NCBI RefSeq assembly: GCF_000260985.4
Contig: NC_017857.3
Location: forward strand, 1,426,001-1,490,000
DNA length: 64,000 bases
DNA from: Methylophaga nitratireducenticrescens
GTDB lineage: Bacteria; Pseudomonadota; Gammaproteobacteria; Nitrosococcales; Methylophagaceae
Direction: 5' to 3'
A program made the position numbers and the translations under genes. The notes beneath the pieces are model-generated. The model worked only from the letters and a program-made list of their open reading frames with translations. It searched no databases and was not told where the DNA came from. This document shows, in pieces, positions 22,325 through 56,656 of this stretch. Position 1 is the stretch's first letter. The number at the start of each line of letters is the position of its first letter.

Positions 22325-23491
22325 ATGGCAGAGGATCGAATAAAAAGTGTTGCTATTCTGGGGATACGGGGCCTACCGGCTGCACATGGTGGTTTCGAAA
22401 CCTTTGTAGAATACCTGGTACCTGTACTGGTCAAAAATGGTTGGAAAGTAACGGTTTATTGCCAACATATTGGGACCGGACCTATTTTTACCAGCAAATA
22501 CAAAGGTGTTGAGTTAGTACACATTCCTGTTAAAAACGATACGCCATGGAGCACTATCATTTTTGACTGGAAAGCCACTAGACATGCATGCCGATCTCAA
22601 TCTTTATTGTTGACGTTAGGATACAACACCGGCTTTTTGGCTATTTATTGTCGAATAAAGAAAGTTTATAACGTAATTAATATGGATGGAATCGAATGGA
22701 AGCGCGGTAAATGGTCTTTGCCTATCCGTATTTGGTTTTATCTCAATGAGCGTATTGCTTGTCTCATGGGGGATCATTTAATTGCTGACCATCCTGAAAT
22801 CAAAAAGCATCTTCAAACGCGTGTTAGTGTGGATAAAATTACCATGATTCCTTATGGTGCTGAAAGTGTTGAAACGGCTAAACCGGAAAAATTAAAGCCT
22901 TTTGGTCTGCAAACAAATAACTATGCAGTGGTTATTGCCCGGCTGGAACCGGAAAACTCAATACTGGAAATAGTCCAGGCCTTTTCACAAAAGCCACGAG
23001 ACTATGATCTGGTGATTTTGGGTAATATCTTTCCAGAACAAAATGATTACCACGGTAGAATCAAGCGTGCGTCAAATGACAGAGTCAAATTTCTGGGAGC
23101 AATATATGACCCAGAGGTTGTCCAGTCTTTAAGATACTATTCTCGTGTTTATATTCATGGACATACGGTTGGCGGAACAAATCCATCCCTTGTTGAAGCT
23201 TTGGGTGCAGGATGCTGTATTCTGGCTCACGAAAATGCTTTCAATCGTTGGGTAACTCAAGAGCAGGTGCTTTATTTCAACAATATCAAAGATTGCAGTG
23301 ATAAGTTGGATTTAATCTTTAGAGATGATGAATTAAATACAATGTTGAAATTATCCAGCAGACAGGTTTTTCATAAAATGTTTGAGTGGTTACCGATTTT
23401 GAAACAATATGAAAAGCTATTAGAGATCAAACTAAAATATGCGCTAAATAAATCACTGCTTATAGAAAACTCATCATCAAGCTTGAAGTGA
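22325..23491 (+). CDS. Glycosyltransferase with DUF1972/GT4 architecture
   Basis: A 388-residue GT-B protein whose N-terminus, SVAILGIRGLPAAHGGFETF, is the signature of the DUF1972 family seen in beta-1,4-rhamnosyltransferases such as Cps2T/WchF. The donor half has VVIARLEPENSILEIVQAF and HGHTVGGTNPSLVEALGAG. Members usually transfer rhamnose as the second sugar of a repeat unit. It is the last glycosyltransferase before a 459-base gap and follows the glycosidase gene by 50 bases. Confidence 0.85.
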   Translation: MAEDRIKSVAILGIRGLPAAHGGFETFVEYLVPVLVKNGWKVTVYCQHIGTGPIFTSKYKGVELVHIPVKNDTPWSTIIFDWKATRHACRSQSLLLTLGYNTGFLAIYCRIKKVYNVINMDGIEWKRGKWSLPIRIWFYLNERIACLMGDHLIADHPEIKKHLQTRVSVDKITMIPYGAESVETAKPEKLKPFGLQTNNYAVVIARLEPENSILEIVQAFSQKPRDYDLVILGNIFPEQNDYHGRIKRASNDRVKFLGAIYDPEVVQSLRYYSRVYIHGHTVGGTNPSLVEALGAGCCILAHENAFNRWVTQEQVLYFNNIKDCSDKLDLIFRDDELNTMLKLSSRQVFHKMFEWLPILKQYEKLLEIKLKYALNKSLLIENSSSSLK

Positions 23492-23950
23492 ATAATAAAT
23501 GACGATTATTGATAAATTAAGCACTACCCGCTTGAATACTATCACTAATGTCTTAAACCAAACATGCAACTGTTTACTTAGCGATTTTCGTTACGAAGCT
23601 TTTGAAATTTCATGATAAGTAAACAAATGATAGTTATTTTGTTGCATTGGGCAAATTAATGCGACTTGGATATCTTGTTCTGAAGGTTTTAATTTATCAG
23701 GTAGTTTTATATCCAACGAAATCCTTCAACGACCCAAAAACAGGGCAGAAAAAACACATTTAAGTACATAAACCATTAACCCCAAAAAGATCTGGCTAAA
23801 GGAGCCTCAGAAAGATTTATGCTAAGCCACAATTTTACAGAAATCATGGTTTTTTCTATGGGCCAATCACATTGATTACGACTTAACTATGATAGTACTT
23901 AAGACTATTTGTCGATTGAATTGTATTCTTAATGGAGTCGCAAGCTTTAG
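23492..23950. other. 459-bp intergenic region before the wecG-exosortase-prsT unit
   Basis: AT-rich non-coding region. It holds a perfect 10-base inverted repeat, TGTTTACTTA at 23571-23580 and TAAGTAAACA at 23616-23625, 35 bases apart. No terminator with a U-tract and no convincing promoter hexamers were found. The length and the separate character of the next three genes suggest that a new transcription unit begins here. Confidence 0.5.
23571..23625. repeat. 10-bp perfect inverted repeat, possible operator
   Basis: TGTTTACTTA (23571-23580) and TAAGTAAACA (23616-23625) are perfect reverse complements with a 35-base spacer. They could be two half-sites of a looping regulator or a hairpin in the 3' region of the glycosyltransferase transcript. 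They are not followed by a T-run, so an intrinsic terminator is unlikely. Confidence 0.4.
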
Positions 23951-25054
23951 ATGAAAAAATTTCATTCACCGGTCTGGTGTGTGGCGGGTTTGCCGTTTCA
24001 CCAAATGACAATCGAACAAGCTGTAAATTATTTATATTGGTCAATAGAACATAAACACCGTTGTTTCTTATCGACGCCCAACCTCAATTTTGCTGCCACT
24101 TCGCAGTTTGATCCTGATTTTTATAAGTCGGTAATTCAAAGTGATCTAGTGGTTGTGGACGGTATTTCATTACTCCTAACAGCTAAGCTACTCAATATTC
24201 CCATACCAGAAAGAGTTGCTGGCTCAGATATTTTTGCCCGATTATCTGAACAAGTATTATCCCCAAAAATTAAAGTGTTTTTTTTGGGTGGTGAGCCTGG
24301 TATTGCTGAAAAGGCCCATCAGCAGCTAAATAAAAGCAGCCAAGGAATGATAAGCTGCGGCTTTTATGATCCTGGATTTGTTTCGGTGGAAGAAATGTCC
24401 AATGATTCAATTATCGAGAAAATCAATAATAGTGATCCAGACTTTCTAGTGGTGGCGCTTGGTGCCAAAAAAGGACAACAATGGATCTTGCGTAATCAGA
24501 CGAAGCTAAATGCAACAGTTATTTCTCATCTTGGCGCGGTAATAAATTTTGTTGCGGGACATGTAAAGCGTGCCCCCGAAAAATGGCAACGTTATGGATT
24601 AGAGTGGTTATGGCGAATCAGACAGGAGCCAAAACTTCTAAAGCGATATTTTTTTGATGCGATCACTTACTCCAGACTATTACTGACTCAAATTATTCCC
24701 CTTTACTGGTATTCACGTTATTTAACCCAAAAGGTTACCTCTCATGATTATCAGACAGAAGTCAGATTTAGCCAGGGTGAGCAGTTGATTGTCTATCTGT
24801 CTGGTTGTGTCGAAGGCGAGTATTTGGATCAATTAGACGAGATTTTTGATGATGTATTGGATAAGCAAGTTCCTGATGTAATTATAAATGTTACTGATCT
24901 TAAGTTAATTGGTGCTGATATAGTGGGACGGCTTTTATTCTTGCAAGGGTATCTGGAACGTCAAGGTCGAGGTTTGAGTTTACAAGGGATTTCTGAAAAA
25001 TTGCAGCGTATATTGCGCTTTAGTGGTGTTTTAAATCGATTCAAGTTAATCTGA
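23951..25054 (+). CDS. WecG/TagA/CpsF glycosyltransferase fused to a C-terminal STAS domain
   Basis: A 367-residue two-domain protein. Residues about 1-240 are a GT26 (WecG/TagA) enzyme: the TPNLNFA region, VVDGISLLLTAKL, RVAGSDIFARL and FFLGGEPGIAEKA, then PDFLVVALGAKKGQQWI. These enzymes add N-acetylmannosamine-type sugars to undecaprenyl-diphosphate-linked acceptors. After a basic amphipathic link (about 240-265) residues 268-367 look like a STAS domain (LIVYLSG, DVIINVTDLKLIGADIVGRLL, LSLQGISEKLQRILRFSG). The usual phosphoacceptor Ser position reads GAD. Wild-type GT26 proteins end near 245 residues, so the extension is a real addition, not a frameshift. Confidence 0.82.
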   Translation: MKKFHSPVWCVAGLPFHQMTIEQAVNYLYWSIEHKHRCFLSTPNLNFAATSQFDPDFYKSVIQSDLVVVDGISLLLTAKLLNIPIPERVAGSDIFARLSEQVLSPKIKVFFLGGEPGIAEKAHQQLNKSSQGMISCGFYDPGFVSVEEMSNDSIIEKINNSDPDFLVVALGAKKGQQWILRNQTKLNATVISHLGAVINFVAGHVKRAPEKWQRYGLEWLWRIRQEPKLLKRYFFDAITYSRLLLTQIIPLYWYSRYLTQKVTSHDYQTEVRFSQGEQLIVYLSGCVEGEYLDQLDEIFDDVLDKQVPDVIINVTDLKLIGADIVGRLLFLQGYLERQGRGLSLQGISEKLQRILRFSGVLNRFKLI

Positions 25055-25093
25055 CATTATAAGTAATGAATCGCATATGAATGGAGGCCAAGG

Positions 25094-26620
25094 TTGTTAA
25101 ACATTAAAATGGTAGGGATGTTTATCCTTGCACTCGCGATAGCGATAATTGCTTATTGGGCAGGGCTTGCCGAGGCTGTTTCAAGATGGAGCAACCAGGA
25201 AGAATACAGTCATGGCTTTTTAATCCCTCTGGTCACGCTTTTTATTCTATGGGAAAAACGTAATTTAATTAATGCTGCAAAAGGCCCCCCACTGTGGTCT
25301 GGGGTCTTCGTGATACTCATTGCCATAATTATTTTTATTGTGGGCGAAATCAGCGCGCTGTTTTTACTTATTCAATACTCCTTTGTAATGATTCTGCTTG
25401 GGCTTTCGATGGTCACCGTTGGCAAAGCGACTAAATATACCTTTGCTCCAATATTGTTACTTTTATTTGCGATTCCCTTACCCTACGTTATAGAAGTCGT
25501 TCTTACCGCCAAGCTTCAGTTATTTTCTTCGTGGTTAGGTGTTCAGGTCATTCGGTTATTCCAAATCCCGGTGTTTCTGGAAGGCAATATTATCGATCTT
25601 GGCGTTTATCAGCTTCAGGTCGTGGAAGCCTGTAGTGGACTACGTTATCTCTTCCCGTTAATGAGTCTGGGTTTTATTGCTGCGTATTTTTATCAAGCAG
25701 CATTCTGGAAGCGTGCAACCATTTTTCTGATGACGATTCCAATTACCATTTTGATGAATAGTTTCCGGATCGGTGCTATAGGCGTGATGGTTGATAATTG
25801 GGGCATCTCAATGGCAGAAGGTTTTCTGCATGACTTTGAGGGCTGGATTATCTTTATGGCCTGCGCCGCTTTGCTTTTCTTACTGGTGGTCTTTCTAGAG
25901 AAAATTGCACCCAGTCGAAAAACGCTGTCGCAGCTTTTTGGTGTAGTGGATCATGCACCAGCCAATAAAATGTTCAGTGGGGATTCGCTGGTGTATTCCT
26001 ACAAACCATTTATTGTTGTTCTGATTCTTCTGATTGCGGCTTTATTTTCTACTAAATTCTTTGATAATCGTGTTGAAGAAATTCCAGAACATCAGGAATT
26101 CATTAGTTTCCCATTGCAATTTACGGGTTGGATTGGACAGCATGAAAAATTAGATGAGCGTGTGGTGGATAAGCTGGGCATGACAGATTATCTGTTTGTA
26201 AACTTCACCGGTATGGATAGTAGTATTGTTAACCTTTATGTGGCTTATTACGAAACTCAGCGCAAAGGGCAATCTCCACATTCACCACGAGTATGTATTC
26301 CAGGGGGCGGCTGGGAGATTGCAGATTTTCGTCGAACTGAAGTCATGGGGGAGCCAATTAACCGCGTTATTATTAAAAATGGCGATCAGGAACAGTTGGT
26401 TTATTACTGGTTCCAGGGCCGTGGTCGACAGATTGCCAATGAATATTTGAATAAGTGGTTTTTATTCAAAGATGCATTATTAGAAAACAGAACAGATGGC
26501 GCATTGGTTCGTTATGTCACGCCTGTGCATCCGGGCGAGAGTCATCAGGAGGCTGATGCCAGAATCCAATTGCTTATGCAGAGTACCTCACCCGAAATCA
26601 AACGTTATCTTGCAGAATAA
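25094..26620 (+). CDS. Exosortase fused to EpsI domain
   Basis: A 508-residue protein. Residues about 1-280 form a polytopic exosortase with the expected triad: Cys180 in VVEACSGLRYLFPLMSLG, Arg225 in MNSFRIGAIG and His246 in GFLHDFEGW. After a further membrane helix (about 305-318) a periplasmic EpsI domain (DUF3485) runs to the end, with CIPGGGWEI and YYWFQGRGR segments. Exosortases process C-terminal PEP-CTERM-type sorting signals on exported proteins. The start is a TTG at 25094 with a strong GGAGG at 25083-25087; the next in-frame ATG (25109) has no such site. No substrate with a sorting signal is in the window. XrtA and XrtD types both carry this fusion. Confidence 0.88.
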   Translation: MLNIKMVGMFILALAIAIIAYWAGLAEAVSRWSNQEEYSHGFLIPLVTLFILWEKRNLINAAKGPPLWSGVFVILIAIIIFIVGEISALFLLIQYSFVMILLGLSMVTVGKATKYTFAPILLLLFAIPLPYVIEVVLTAKLQLFSSWLGVQVIRLFQIPVFLEGNIIDLGVYQLQVVEACSGLRYLFPLMSLGFIAAYFYQAAFWKRATIFLMTIPITILMNSFRIGAIGVMVDNWGISMAEGFLHDFEGWIIFMACAALLFLLVVFLEKIAPSRKTLSQLFGVVDHAPANKMFSGDSLVYSYKPFIVVLILLIAALFSTKFFDNRVEEIPEHQEFISFPLQFTGWIGQHEKLDERVVDKLGMTDYLFVNFTGMDSSIVNLYVAYYETQRKGQSPHSPRVCIPGGGWEIADFRRTEVMGEPINRVIIKNGDQEQLVYYWFQGRGRQIANEYLNKWFLFKDALLENRTDGALVRYVTPVHPGESHQEADARIQLLMQSTSPEIKRYLAE

Positions 26621-26636
26621 GTTTAGGAATATGGAT

Positions 26637-29018
26637 ATGAAAATTTTAAAACGTACCGTTCTTGCCGCCTTATTGATTGGCGTCATTTCAGGCTGTGGCT
26701 CTGCCGAGGAGTCTTCTGCAAAGTTTATTGAAAGCGGTAAAGAACTGATGGAACAGGGTGATTTTGAGAAGGCCCGGTTGGAGTTTCGAAACGCCTTACA
26801 GATTAATCCATTAGAAGCCGAAGGCTATTATCAACTGGCACTGATTGATGAAAAGAACCAGAACTGGAAGGGTATGTATGCCAATTTATCCACGGTGGAG
26901 TCGCTGGATCCGAATAACGTTAATGCTATCGTTAAATTGGGACAAATCCAGCTGTTGTCTGGTCGCCTGGACGAGGCAATGGAACGGTCTGAAAAAGCAC
27001 TTACTCTGGAGCCGGAAAATATCGAAGCCATATTGCTTCAGGCAACGATTTATATCAAACAGGAAAATTTTGCTGAAGCTGAAAAGCAAATTAATCAGGC
27101 TTTATCAATTGATAACACGTCGATGGAGGCATTATCAGCTCAGATAATGTTATACAAAGAAACTGAAAAATACGATTTAGCACTTTCAGCCGCAGATGAA
27201 GCATTAGCGGTTCATCCTGAATCGTTACCGGTAAAAATGATCAAGTTGAGTATTTACGAAGCGCAGAAAGACTTTAAGGCGATGGAATCTATGCTCAGAT
27301 CATTAGCAGAAGAAATGCCAGATGAAAGCTGGATAGCTATTTCATTGACGAAAATACTTAACGATGTTCTGAATCGTCCGGATGAAGCCAAAAAGGTAAT
27401 GGAAAATTATATAGCGGGTAATCCTGATGATATCGATACAAAATTGGCCTATGTCGGATTTTTGAATAATTTTGATAATGAAGCTGCCGTTGCCTTGCTG
27501 AATCAATATGTTGCCGAGCATCCGGATAATCAGGAATTACGGTTTGCCAAGTTGGAAATGTTGCAGAGACAGGGTAAAACCGAAGATATGGTAGCGGAAT
27601 TGGAGACTATTATTGCGTCGGAGCCTGATACCGAAAGCGGTTTAAGAGCAAAGTCGACATTAGCGAGTCTCGAAGCCAGCAAAGGAAACTTTGACCAGGC
27701 TGAAAAAATGGCCGATGAAGTGCTTGTGATTGATGCACAAAATGAACAGGCGTTATTGATTAAATCAAAGCTACAAATTCGTAATGAGGACTTTGATTCT
27801 GCGATAAGTAATCTTAGGACGATTATTCGTAATAATCCTGAAGCGGATGAGGCGATGGTTTTGCTGGCACAGGTTTATATGAAAACCGGTTCAGCACAAT
27901 TAGCGGAGAATAGTTTCAGACAGGCGCTGTCCGTGAATCCTAAAAACCCTCAGGCGGCTATCTCTGTGGCGAGCAGTTTGATGCGGAATAACGACTTGGA
28001 TCGGACAGAAGGTGTATTGATTGGTGCTTTGGAAGGAAGCCCGAACTCTGAAGAATTATTGCAGGCACTGGCGCAAGTTCGGATTTTGAAACGTGACTGG
28101 TCAGGTACCAAAACAATATTGGATTCATTGCGTGATTCGGAGTCTGCTTTAACACACCTTTTGACTGCTCAGATGTATCAGGGCCTCGAAGATTACACGC
28201 TGGCCATAACGGAATATGATCGGGCCCTGCAGATTGATCCTGGTCTTACCCGTGCATTGCAGGAGCTGGCTCAAAGCTATCTGCGTCTTGAACAGCAAGA
28301 TGAAATGATCGAATACCTTAATCAACATATCGTTGAATATCCCGAGCTATTAAATGGTTATTCTGTATTAAGCAATTATTATGTGTCTCAGAACGACTGG
28401 GACGCAGCGATAAGTGTCACTGAAAAAGGCATTAAGTCGAATCCTGAATGGGGTGGTGGCTATGGCATGATGGCAGGGCTTTATCAGCAAAAAGGTGATA
28501 TGGAGCAGGCCGTTTCAACTTATCAAAAAGGTCTCGAAAAGTTACCTGACGATAATGTTCTCACTTTACAACTGGCCTCAACCTATGAAGCGATGAGAGA
28601 CTATCCAAAAGCCAGGGAATTATATGAAGAAGTCCTTTCCCGCGATCCTTCCATAGACGTGGCGGCAAATAATTTGGCCAGTTTGCTGACCGATCAATTT
28701 GAATCACCAGAAAATCTGCAGCGGGCATTAACTTTGTCCAGTCGTTTTCGTGATTCTGAACAACCTTATTTTGCCGATACCTTTGGTTGGGTAAATTACA
28801 AAATGGGGAATTATGAAGATGCCAGACCGGCATTGGAAACAGCTGCTTCAAGTGAGCAATCCATTGCTTTATTCCATTATCATCTTGGTCGGGTATATGT
28901 TGCGTTGAATATGCCTGAAGAAGCACAACAGTCATTTGAGCGTGCTCAGCGCATGGCGACTGAAGGCAATGATGAAGCGTTACTTGGTAAGGTTACGGAA
29001 CAATTAAATCAGCTGTAG
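26637..29018 (+). CDS. prsT: PrsT-like TPR-repeat lipoprotein of the exosortase system
   Basis: A 793-residue lipoprotein made almost wholly of tetratricopeptide repeats. The start at 26637 (MKILKRTV) is chosen because AGGA lies at 26625-26628, 8 bases before; an ATG at 26631 is too close and the longer open frame overlaps the exosortase. The signal ends at a lipobox ISGC (Cys20). Around 20 TPR units follow, with typical sequences such as YYQLALIDEKNQNWKGM and FHYHLGRVYVALNMPEEA. PrsT homologues sit beside exosortase genes in exopolysaccharide loci and are thought to scaffold secretion or polymerisation. It ends at a strong terminator. Confidence 0.87.
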   Translation: MKILKRTVLAALLIGVISGCGSAEESSAKFIESGKELMEQGDFEKARLEFRNALQINPLEAEGYYQLALIDEKNQNWKGMYANLSTVESLDPNNVNAIVKLGQIQLLSGRLDEAMERSEKALTLEPENIEAILLQATIYIKQENFAEAEKQINQALSIDNTSMEALSAQIMLYKETEKYDLALSAADEALAVHPESLPVKMIKLSIYEAQKDFKAMESMLRSLAEEMPDESWIAISLTKILNDVLNRPDEAKKVMENYIAGNPDDIDTKLAYVGFLNNFDNEAAVALLNQYVAEHPDNQELRFAKLEMLQRQGKTEDMVAELETIIASEPDTESGLRAKSTLASLEASKGNFDQAEKMADEVLVIDAQNEQALLIKSKLQIRNEDFDSAISNLRTIIRNNPEADEAMVLLAQVYMKTGSAQLAENSFRQALSVNPKNPQAAISVASSLMRNNDLDRTEGVLIGALEGSPNSEELLQALAQVRILKRDWSGTKTILDSLRDSESALTHLLTAQMYQGLEDYTLAITEYDRALQIDPGLTRALQELAQSYLRLEQQDEMIEYLNQHIVEYPELLNGYSVLSNYYVSQNDWDAAISVTEKGIKSNPEWGGGYGMMAGLYQQKGDMEQAVSTYQKGLEKLPDDNVLTLQLASTYEAMRDYPKARELYEEVLSRDPSIDVAANNLASLLTDQFESPENLQRALTLSSRFRDSEQPYFADTFGWVNYKMGNYEDARPALETAASSEQSIALFHYHLGRVYVALNMPEEAQQSFERAQRMATEGNDEALLGKVTEQLNQL

Positions 29019-44787: not shown

Positions 44788-44863
44788 TGGCTCCCCGAGC
44801 TGGACTCGAACCAGCGACCCAATGATTAACAGTCATTTGCTCTACCAACTGAGCTATCGGGGA
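44788..44863 (-). tRNA. tRNA-Asn (anticodon GTT)
   Basis: A 76-base tRNA on the minus strand. The acceptor TCCCCGA pairs with the 3' TCGGGGA, the D-arm reads TAGCTCAGTTGGTAGAGCA, the anticodon stem encloses CTGTTAA with anticodon GTT, and the T-arm has GGTTCGAGTCC. The CCA end is encoded. Confidence 0.96.
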
Positions 44864-49116: not shown

Positions 49117-49132
49117 TTCGCGCTTCACAGCA

Positions 49133-49208
49133 GGCACGTAGCTCAGTTGGTTAGAGCACCACCTTGACATGGTGGGGGTCGTTGGTTCGAATCCAATCGT
49201 GCCTACCA
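49133..49208 (+). tRNA. tRNA-Val (anticodon GAC)
   Basis: A 76-base tRNA. The D-arm reads TAGCTCAGTTGGTTAGAGCA, the anticodon stem CCACC/GGTGG encloses TTGACAT with anticodon GAC, the T-arm has GGTTCGAATCC, and CCA is encoded. The seventh acceptor pair is a T-T mismatch. Confidence 0.95.
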
Positions 49209-56579: not shown

Positions 56580-56656
56580 CGGGGCATGGCGCAGCCTGGT
56601 AGCGCACTTGCATGGGGTGCAAGGGGTCGAAGGTTCAAATCCTTCTGTCCCGACCA
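56580..56656 (+). tRNA. tRNA-Pro (anticodon GGG)
   Basis: A 77-base tRNA starting CGGGGCA, with D-arm TGGCGCAGCCTGGTAGCGCA, anticodon stem CTTGC/GCAAG around ATGGGGT (anticodon GGG), T-arm GGTTCAAATCC and encoded CCA. The acceptor has one G-T wobble pair. Confidence 0.96.

Follow-up and report, generated by a model that had tools for sequence, protein, structure and literature searches.

Why should a glycosyltransferase carry a STAS domain? The domain is familiar from stress-switch proteins, the tails of transporters and subunits of lipid transport, and the question is raised by one gene of Methylophaga nitratireducenticrescens, which lies in a window of 64,000 nucleotides (the whole stretch of DNA analysed; contig NC_017857.3, positions 1,426,001 to 1,490,000 of the forward strand). 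From the sequence alone, the initial annotation read its product as a WecG-type (GT26) glycosyltransferase fused to a STAS domain, which could place a polysaccharide-initiating enzyme under the control of a partner-switch signal. We found no report of a GT26-STAS protein among the open-licence papers listed, and no paper there that combines STAS with an exosortase or PEP-CTERM, and the architecture may well stand in domain databases.

A GT26 domain and a STAS domain in one protein

The positions of the domains and of the neighbouring genes are given in Table 1. In the N-terminal part, Pfam Glyco_tran_WecG (PF03808) matched residues 64-232 with 173.2 bits against a gathering score of 27.4, and TagA of the solved structure aligned with residues 11-233 (E 6e-37). 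In the C-terminal part, this protein scored under the gathering scores of both STAS families (STAS_2, PF13466, 23.0 bits against 29.2; STAS, PF01740, 20.6 bits against 22.6). At the level of the family, 37 members of the clade described below were matched at E <= 0.01 by WecG in 37/37, by STAS_2 in 36/37 and by STAS in 33/37 cases, and the top members scored E 7.4e-11 and 3.5e-13 (PF01740 and PF13466, respectively). In addition, a profile built on 73 STAS parts matched solved anti-sigma-antagonist structures with E 6e-18 to 5e-12; MlaB was matched by the STAS profile with E about 6e-8, and the anti-sigma antagonists are closer in sequence than MlaB.

The AlphaFold2 model of the full protein, for which 24 family members served as input, had a mean pLDDT of 89 and a pTM of 0.88, and a 33-residue helix (residues 229-261) separates the two domains in it. 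Foldseek with the whole model returned TagA first (7n41, E 1.6e-15, TMt 0.91) and then SpoIIAA/RsbV (1til, E 1.4e-5; 6m36, TMt 0.88-0.91). Modelled alone from 73 sequences, the STAS part reached a pLDDT of 88, and it matched RsbV (6m36_B) with Z 15.9 and an rmsd of 1.7 over 100 residues, SpoIIAA with Z 15.4 and MlaB with Z 12.4. The linker helix starts within the equivalent of the TagA C-terminal appendage, and the hydrophobic moments along it, calculated as a check of amphipathicity, were 0.17-0.42. The uninterrupted reading frame, the model, the Foldseek results and the match to the RsbV fold ruled out a chance match or a misread frame. The fusion proposed in the initial annotation was thus borne out, with a C-terminal part predicted to be STAS-like, and the presence of a GT26 domain, a long helix and a C-terminal STAS domain in one protein is confirmed at the level of the predicted structure.

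Table 1. Features of the GT26-STAS locus (positions in the window) and of a second fusion (positions in its own locus)
Feature	Position	Strand	Evidence or remark
GT26-STAS fusion ORF, 367 aa	23951..25054	+	no internal stop; Pfam, AlphaFold
GT26 (WecG/TagA/CpsF) domain, residues 1-240	23951..24670	+	Pfam, TagA alignment, Foldseek
Catalytic base D70 (= TagA Asp65)	24158-24160	+	alignment with TagA
A-K-K-G-Q-Q-W, residues 172-178; clade signature xKGQ in place of PKQE	24464..24484	+	
Long predicted helix, residues 229-261, GT26-STAS joint	24635..24733	+	AlphaFold
STAS domain, residues about 267-367	24749..25051	+	fold and profile matches
G321-A322-D323, phosphoacceptor loop	24911..24919	+	profile alignment to SpoIIAA
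XrtD, VPLPA-CTERM exosortase with EpsI domain	25094..26620	+	TIGR04152, TIGR02914
PrsT-like TPR lipoprotein ORF, start uncertain (26631 or 26637 by reading)	26496..29018	+	TIGR02917
G278 GT26 with two STAS, 523-aa frame	L195 258-1826	+	on a 3,997-base contig

Distribution and phylogeny of GT26-STAS proteins

Among 369 genomes, a spread sample of the class, 56 had a GT26 match at E <= 1e-20 (at most 5 candidates were scored per genome), and only the host and genome G278 had GT26 matches beyond model position 300 of 362. With only 2 of these 56 genomes reaching past that position, and with a TagA chain of 244 amino acids, the idea that the C-terminal part is common to all GT26 proteins was rejected. 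A match at E <= 1e-10 was present in 30 of the 63 genomes of the host's order, host counted: 24 were full-length, with an alignment extending through the STAS part, 3 were truncated at contig ends with STAS still seen by HMM, and 3 were plain GT26 proteins that had no STAS and were 26-30% identical.

A scan of genome contigs yielded 179 relatives, the best 80 of which by whole-length score were retained. The scan used two peptide patterns of the GT domain, one of which includes the KGQ signature itself; it is blind to STAS fusions that do not have these patterns, and shorter or more divergent plain members may be missed. STAS was detected by HMM in 79 of these best 80 loci. The exception, in Nitrincola (L108, 9941-11008), is a clade member with a 104-residue C-terminal tail that has no Pfam STAS match and looks like a diverged STAS. 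The carriers include Methylophaga, Cycloclasticus, Methylococcaceae, Porticoccaceae/SAR92, Teredinibacter, Herbaspirillum, Herminiimonas, Thiobacillus and others, Burkholderiales-type bacteria among them. As a check of the pattern scan, profile searches were run on sets of 151 and 392 genomes, some of them in common with the 80 loci. The smaller set held 17 clade members, 15 of them contiguous, one split by an insertion with its STAS part just downstream and one truncated at a contig end; the larger held 43, of which 41 were contiguous, one had STAS in another frame and one was truncated at a contig end. In L204 (8900-9600, genome G538), the GT26 part of a clade member is separated from its STAS part by an insertion with an ORF that reads as transposase-like, and XrtD-like and PrsT-like ORFs come after the split gene.

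In a GT26 tree of 108 rows, the 74 relatives formed a single clade with support of 100/100, composed of 73 proteins with HMM-detected STAS and the Nitrincola member. Rows at least 90% identical had been removed from the tree, and rows at least 85% identical from the STAS set; the order-level loci L007-L032, most of which duplicate named loci, were omitted from the tree. The stem of the clade carries 1.46 changes per column, and the program warned of long branches; the tree contains six long rows, and the stem may join L134 falsely, which leaves the nearest sister uncertain. The other GT26 fusion, that of G278, in which STAS occurs in two stretches, was placed among the plain GT26 proteins outside the main clade, so that the tree asks for two gains of STAS, a placement that depends on one long-branch row. 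The survey of such fusions that had been proposed at the outset revealed one widespread subfamily and, apart from it, the G278 fusion.

The two domains have not evolved at the same pace: among 37 sequences, the mean pairwise identity was 0.235 in the STAS part versus 0.567 in the GT domain. This fast drift would fit the main rival to the role that we propose below, namely a passive role of STAS as a C-terminal cap or dimerisation element, which would stabilise the membrane helix and have neither a signal nor an outside partner. The tail of the Nitrincola protein that is unrecognised as STAS and the lack of a universal neighbour gene point the same way, but the retention of STAS across the clade and the conserved positions of its loop argue for a constrained surface, and most other GT26 proteins manage without such a cap. 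On these grounds we regard a passive cap as rather unlikely.

Active site of the clade enzymes

TagA/TarA of Thermoanaerobacter italicus (7mpk, 7n41, 5wb4) has the GT26 fold in common with the host protein (TMt 0.91), without a STAS domain. The equivalents of its catalytic Asp and of Thr37, Asn39, Arg83, Arg214 and Arg224 are kept in the clade: D70, T42, N44, R88, R207, R222 and R232 were each found in 74/74 clade rows, R222 and R232 being the equivalents of Arg214 and Arg224 in the appendage. However, TagA has a PKQE motif and Asp191, whereas the clade has xKGQ and Asn. We took PKQE and the ribose-contacting Asp191 as typical GT26 features, a choice that is not a curated criterion. Opposite PKQE, the K, G and Q of the clade motif were each present in 74/74 rows, while its first position was K in 53, R in 12, Q in 5 and another residue in four; in 34 plain rows (G278 included) the counts were P 34, K 26, Q 29 and E 34. 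The column of Asp191, which contacts the ribose of UDP (PMC6493773), held Asn in 74/74 clade rows and Asp in 31/34 plain rows. The host protein reads KKGQ (G175, Q176) and N199. With the PKQE motif and the ribose-contacting Asp replaced, the earlier statement that residues 1-240 have all GT26 landmarks does not hold.

A further difference concerns the position before the Leu/Met of the 'EPRRLW' segment, which is Arg or Lys in 34/34 plain rows and, in the clade, Lys in 12/74 and Arg in 0/74. TagA Arg221, described as important for activity (PMC6493773), aligns without gaps with Leu229, where plain rows also have Leu or Met, and the difference is therefore alignment-dependent. From the aligned residues, we infer that the clade enzyme is probably active with another donor or acceptor. 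A bolder reading would make it a 'KGQ type' subfamily of GT26, in which the donor pocket was rebuilt on the same branch as the gain of STAS, the donor and acceptor are not UDP-ManNAc and Und-PP-GlcNAc, and STAS is an obligatory dock for a partner that links the synthesis of lipid-linked repeat units to the exosortase/exopolysaccharide machinery; we offer this tentatively, as a possibility with the balance somewhat against it.

The phosphoacceptor loop and partner-switch control

The acceptor register was taken from the profile alignment to SpoIIAA, in which serine 58 lies in a conserved loop (PMC8256260). The initial annotation had noted GAD at this place, with no Ser or Thr; this reading was confirmed, D323 lying opposite the second Ser of SpoIIAA D-S-S. 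Among 73 sequences, the phosphoserine column held Ala in 51, Ser in 6, Gly in 6, Asp in 3, Arg in 2, Glu in 2 and Pro, Phe and Thr in 1 each, so a phosphorylatable Ser/Thr is present in 7/73. The commonest form of the loop is D-S-A (37/73). Two positions before the acceptor, position 321 is Asp in 61/73 and Gly in the host protein, and G285 is Gly in 73/73; the conservation of these two positions indicates that the acceptor loop is still constrained.

A kinase was also sought near the fusion. Neither HATPase_c_2 nor SpoIIE had a match within the window, those of the host sitting elsewhere in the genome, and the expectation of a nearby RsbW/SpoIIAB-like kinase or PP2C gene was not upheld there; the PP2C search covered the host genome. 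HATPase_c_2 was matched at E <= 1e-8 in 17 of the 40 carrier genomes and at E <= 1e-10 in 8 of these; a comparison of contigs and coordinates placed all matches of the 17 genomes outside the fusion locus. Some were on the locus contig but distant (about 78 kb in G466, about 43 kb in G458 and over 140 kb in G445), and in G467 there was no open frame of the HATPase_c_2 kind at the fusion locus. Since a Ser/Thr acceptor is rare and no kinase was found at the locus, partner-switch control as first suggested is unlikely.

The alternative of a phospho-switch deserves to be weighed against known systems. In it, the activity of the enzyme would be set through STAS, on which an RsbW-type kinase and a PP2C phosphatase would work as SypE does on SypA, and the fold is indeed nearest to RsbV/SpoIIAA. 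In Vibrio fischeri, the STAS protein SypA is likewise connected with a polysaccharide locus; it regulates polysaccharide-dependent biofilm and is phosphorylated at Ser56 by SypE, so that STAS-kinase control of polysaccharide exists, but it is a single STAS domain with no glycosyltransferase fusion (PMC4517449). The 8 carrier genomes with stronger HATPase_c_2 matches and a D-S-T-G acceptor motif, read by eye in the second STAS stretch of the separate G278 fusion, would also favour such a switch. However, RsbV and SpoIIAA are free-standing, with a Ser phosphoacceptor and a kinase partner (PMC8256260), whereas the domain of this family is fused, has mostly Ala at the acceptor and had no kinase match at its locus. 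The scarcity of Ser/Thr acceptors, the window without HATPase_c_2 or SpoIIE matches and the 23 of 40 carrier genomes without any HATPase_c_2 match at E <= 1e-8, the other 17 having none at the locus, make a phospho-switch very improbable.

The exosortase neighbourhood

The XrtD ORF begins 39 bases past the stop codon of the GT26-STAS gene, and TIGR04152 matched it with 545.8 bits against a cut-off of 400; at the PrsT-like ORF, TIGR02917 scored 280 bits, under the cut-off of 312. Upstream of the fusion are genes for glycosyltransferases, a methyltransferase, a polymerase-like protein and chain-length and export proteins, together with acetyltransferases and a flippase identified by reading of ORFs. 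The 459 bases directly upstream of the fusion (23492-23950) hold no listed ORF of at least 100 aa, and scanning 23400-25200 for promoters gave 7 sites where 5.6 were expected, which is no excess. Three tRNA genes of the window (Rfam; 44791-44863, 49132-49205 and 56580-56653) are unrelated to the fusion. The VPLPA-CTERM cut-off was passed by one protein of the host genome, with five weaker matches at E <= 1, a weak class also seen in 5/14 control genomes.

The initial annotation had called the enzyme polysaccharide-initiating. This is doubtful, because the genome encodes another sugar transferase, of the initiating type (PF02397, 476-aa frame), at position 1404378, which is about 45 kb upstream of the fusion, and TagA extends a lipid that bears GlcNAc: its step is called the first committed one, with ManNAc added to lipid already carrying GlcNAc (PMC6493773). 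Outside the window, at G000:C1:1404378-1407633, three VPLPA-CTERM-like ends with very weak matches (E 0.4-0.7) come after the initiating-type transferase and may be chance.

The order GT26-STAS, XrtD, PrsT is recurrent. At the fusion loci of the best 80 of 179 relatives, an XrtD-type gene was found in 52/80 and a PrsT-type gene in 46/80, with many loci ending at contig ends. No exosortase match at E <= 1e-8 was found in 8/40 carrier genomes, some of them draft or metagenome assemblies, which weakens the case for XrtD as an obligatory partner. Seen from the other side, XrtD was above its cut-off in 42 of the 369 genomes of the class-wide sample, and XrtD regions were taken from 39 of these 42 (the host, G305 and G129 were left out, and one of three XrtD places in G281 entered the set). 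An unbroken plain GT26 gene was near XrtD in 7/39 regions, once on the opposite strand, and one more region had GT26 fragments; no STAS HMM match was found in the 39 regions. Plain GT26 beside XrtD without STAS indicates that a GT26 next to XrtD does not need STAS. A split form, with a stand-alone STAS gene beside a plain GT26, was likewise rejected for these 39 XrtD loci of other families, and a free STAS ORF in L080, lying behind Mla-like genes by reading, looks unrelated. Two individual loci may be mentioned. In L185 (13620-14321, G410), two adjoining GT26 fragments close to XrtD are apparently a broken plain GT26. In L205 (8378-9169, G475), a gene downstream of a divergent GT26-STAS gene encodes a short protein that looks secreted and has a C-terminus resembling a sorting signal.

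Proposed role of the STAS domain

We propose that this GT26-type glycosyltransferase is associated with the membrane and belongs to an exopolysaccharide locus linked to an exosortase. By analogy with TagA, it would work on the cytoplasmic side of the inner membrane, transferring a sugar to an acceptor carried on polyprenyl diphosphate, and the STAS domain would hang on the long helix off the end of the membrane-binding appendage. There it may act as a constitutive, non-phosphorylated protein-docking module, which keeps the enzyme complexed with some other part of the polysaccharide machinery, in the manner of MlaB rather than of RsbV. The Mla ABC transporter has a free-standing STAS protein, MlaB, that docks on the ATPase of the transporter, outside sigma-factor control. 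What the analysis establishes is the domain composition, the predicted fold, a single main clade that retains STAS, the divergence of the active site and the scarcity of phosphorylatable residues; the docking, its partner and the catalytic reaction are what we infer for the clade.

Several findings favour docking: the fusion proteins form one clade with 100/100 support, STAS is kept in nearly all assessable members, the catalytic D70 and T42, N44, R222 and R232 are conserved throughout, the STAS loop is constrained, phosphorylatable residues are few, the STAS model resembles MlaB (Z 12.4), and the XrtD/PrsT gene order recurs. The reading is weakened because no neighbour is universal, because the fast drift of STAS also fits a passive stabiliser, and because the family is nearer in sequence to anti-sigma antagonists than to MlaB; moreover, Ser/Thr is kept in 7/73, and the loop Asp is replaced by Gly321 here. 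Taken together, we give a non-phosphorylated STAS docking module, holding the enzyme in a membrane exopolysaccharide assembly complex, an even chance of being right.

Another alternative is a sensor role, in which STAS would detect a small molecule (a nucleotide, nucleotide sugar or lipid) and exert allosteric control over the enzyme by way of the long helix. The appendage at the C-terminus of TagA is proposed to close over the active site on meeting the membrane and so to complete it (PMC6493773), and STAS follows directly after this appendage; SpoIIAA is described as binding GTP (PMC8256260). However, the fast drift of the STAS sequence speaks against a ligand sensor, which we judge improbable and, like the phospho-switch, less likely than the passive cap.

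A published glycosyltransferase with STAS offers a comparison. This is all4160 of Anabaena PCC 7120, likened to our protein by description, which carries its STAS N-terminally, whereas here it is C-terminal (PMC8256260); all4160 is named among the genes needed for heterocyst envelope polysaccharide (PMC4390870).

In conclusion, one lineage of glycosyltransferases has retained a STAS domain in many genera, along with an altered active site, and the GT26-STAS clade is a clean test case for phosphorylation-independent STAS function. A caution follows for annotation, in that the GT26 label alone is insufficient to name the clade enzymes ManNAc transferases. The frequent XrtD/PrsT gene order provides a handle on a possible physical link between exosortase loci and polysaccharide synthesis. 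If the 'KGQ type' reading were true, STAS would tie the synthesis of lipid-linked repeat units to the exosortase/exopolysaccharide machinery.
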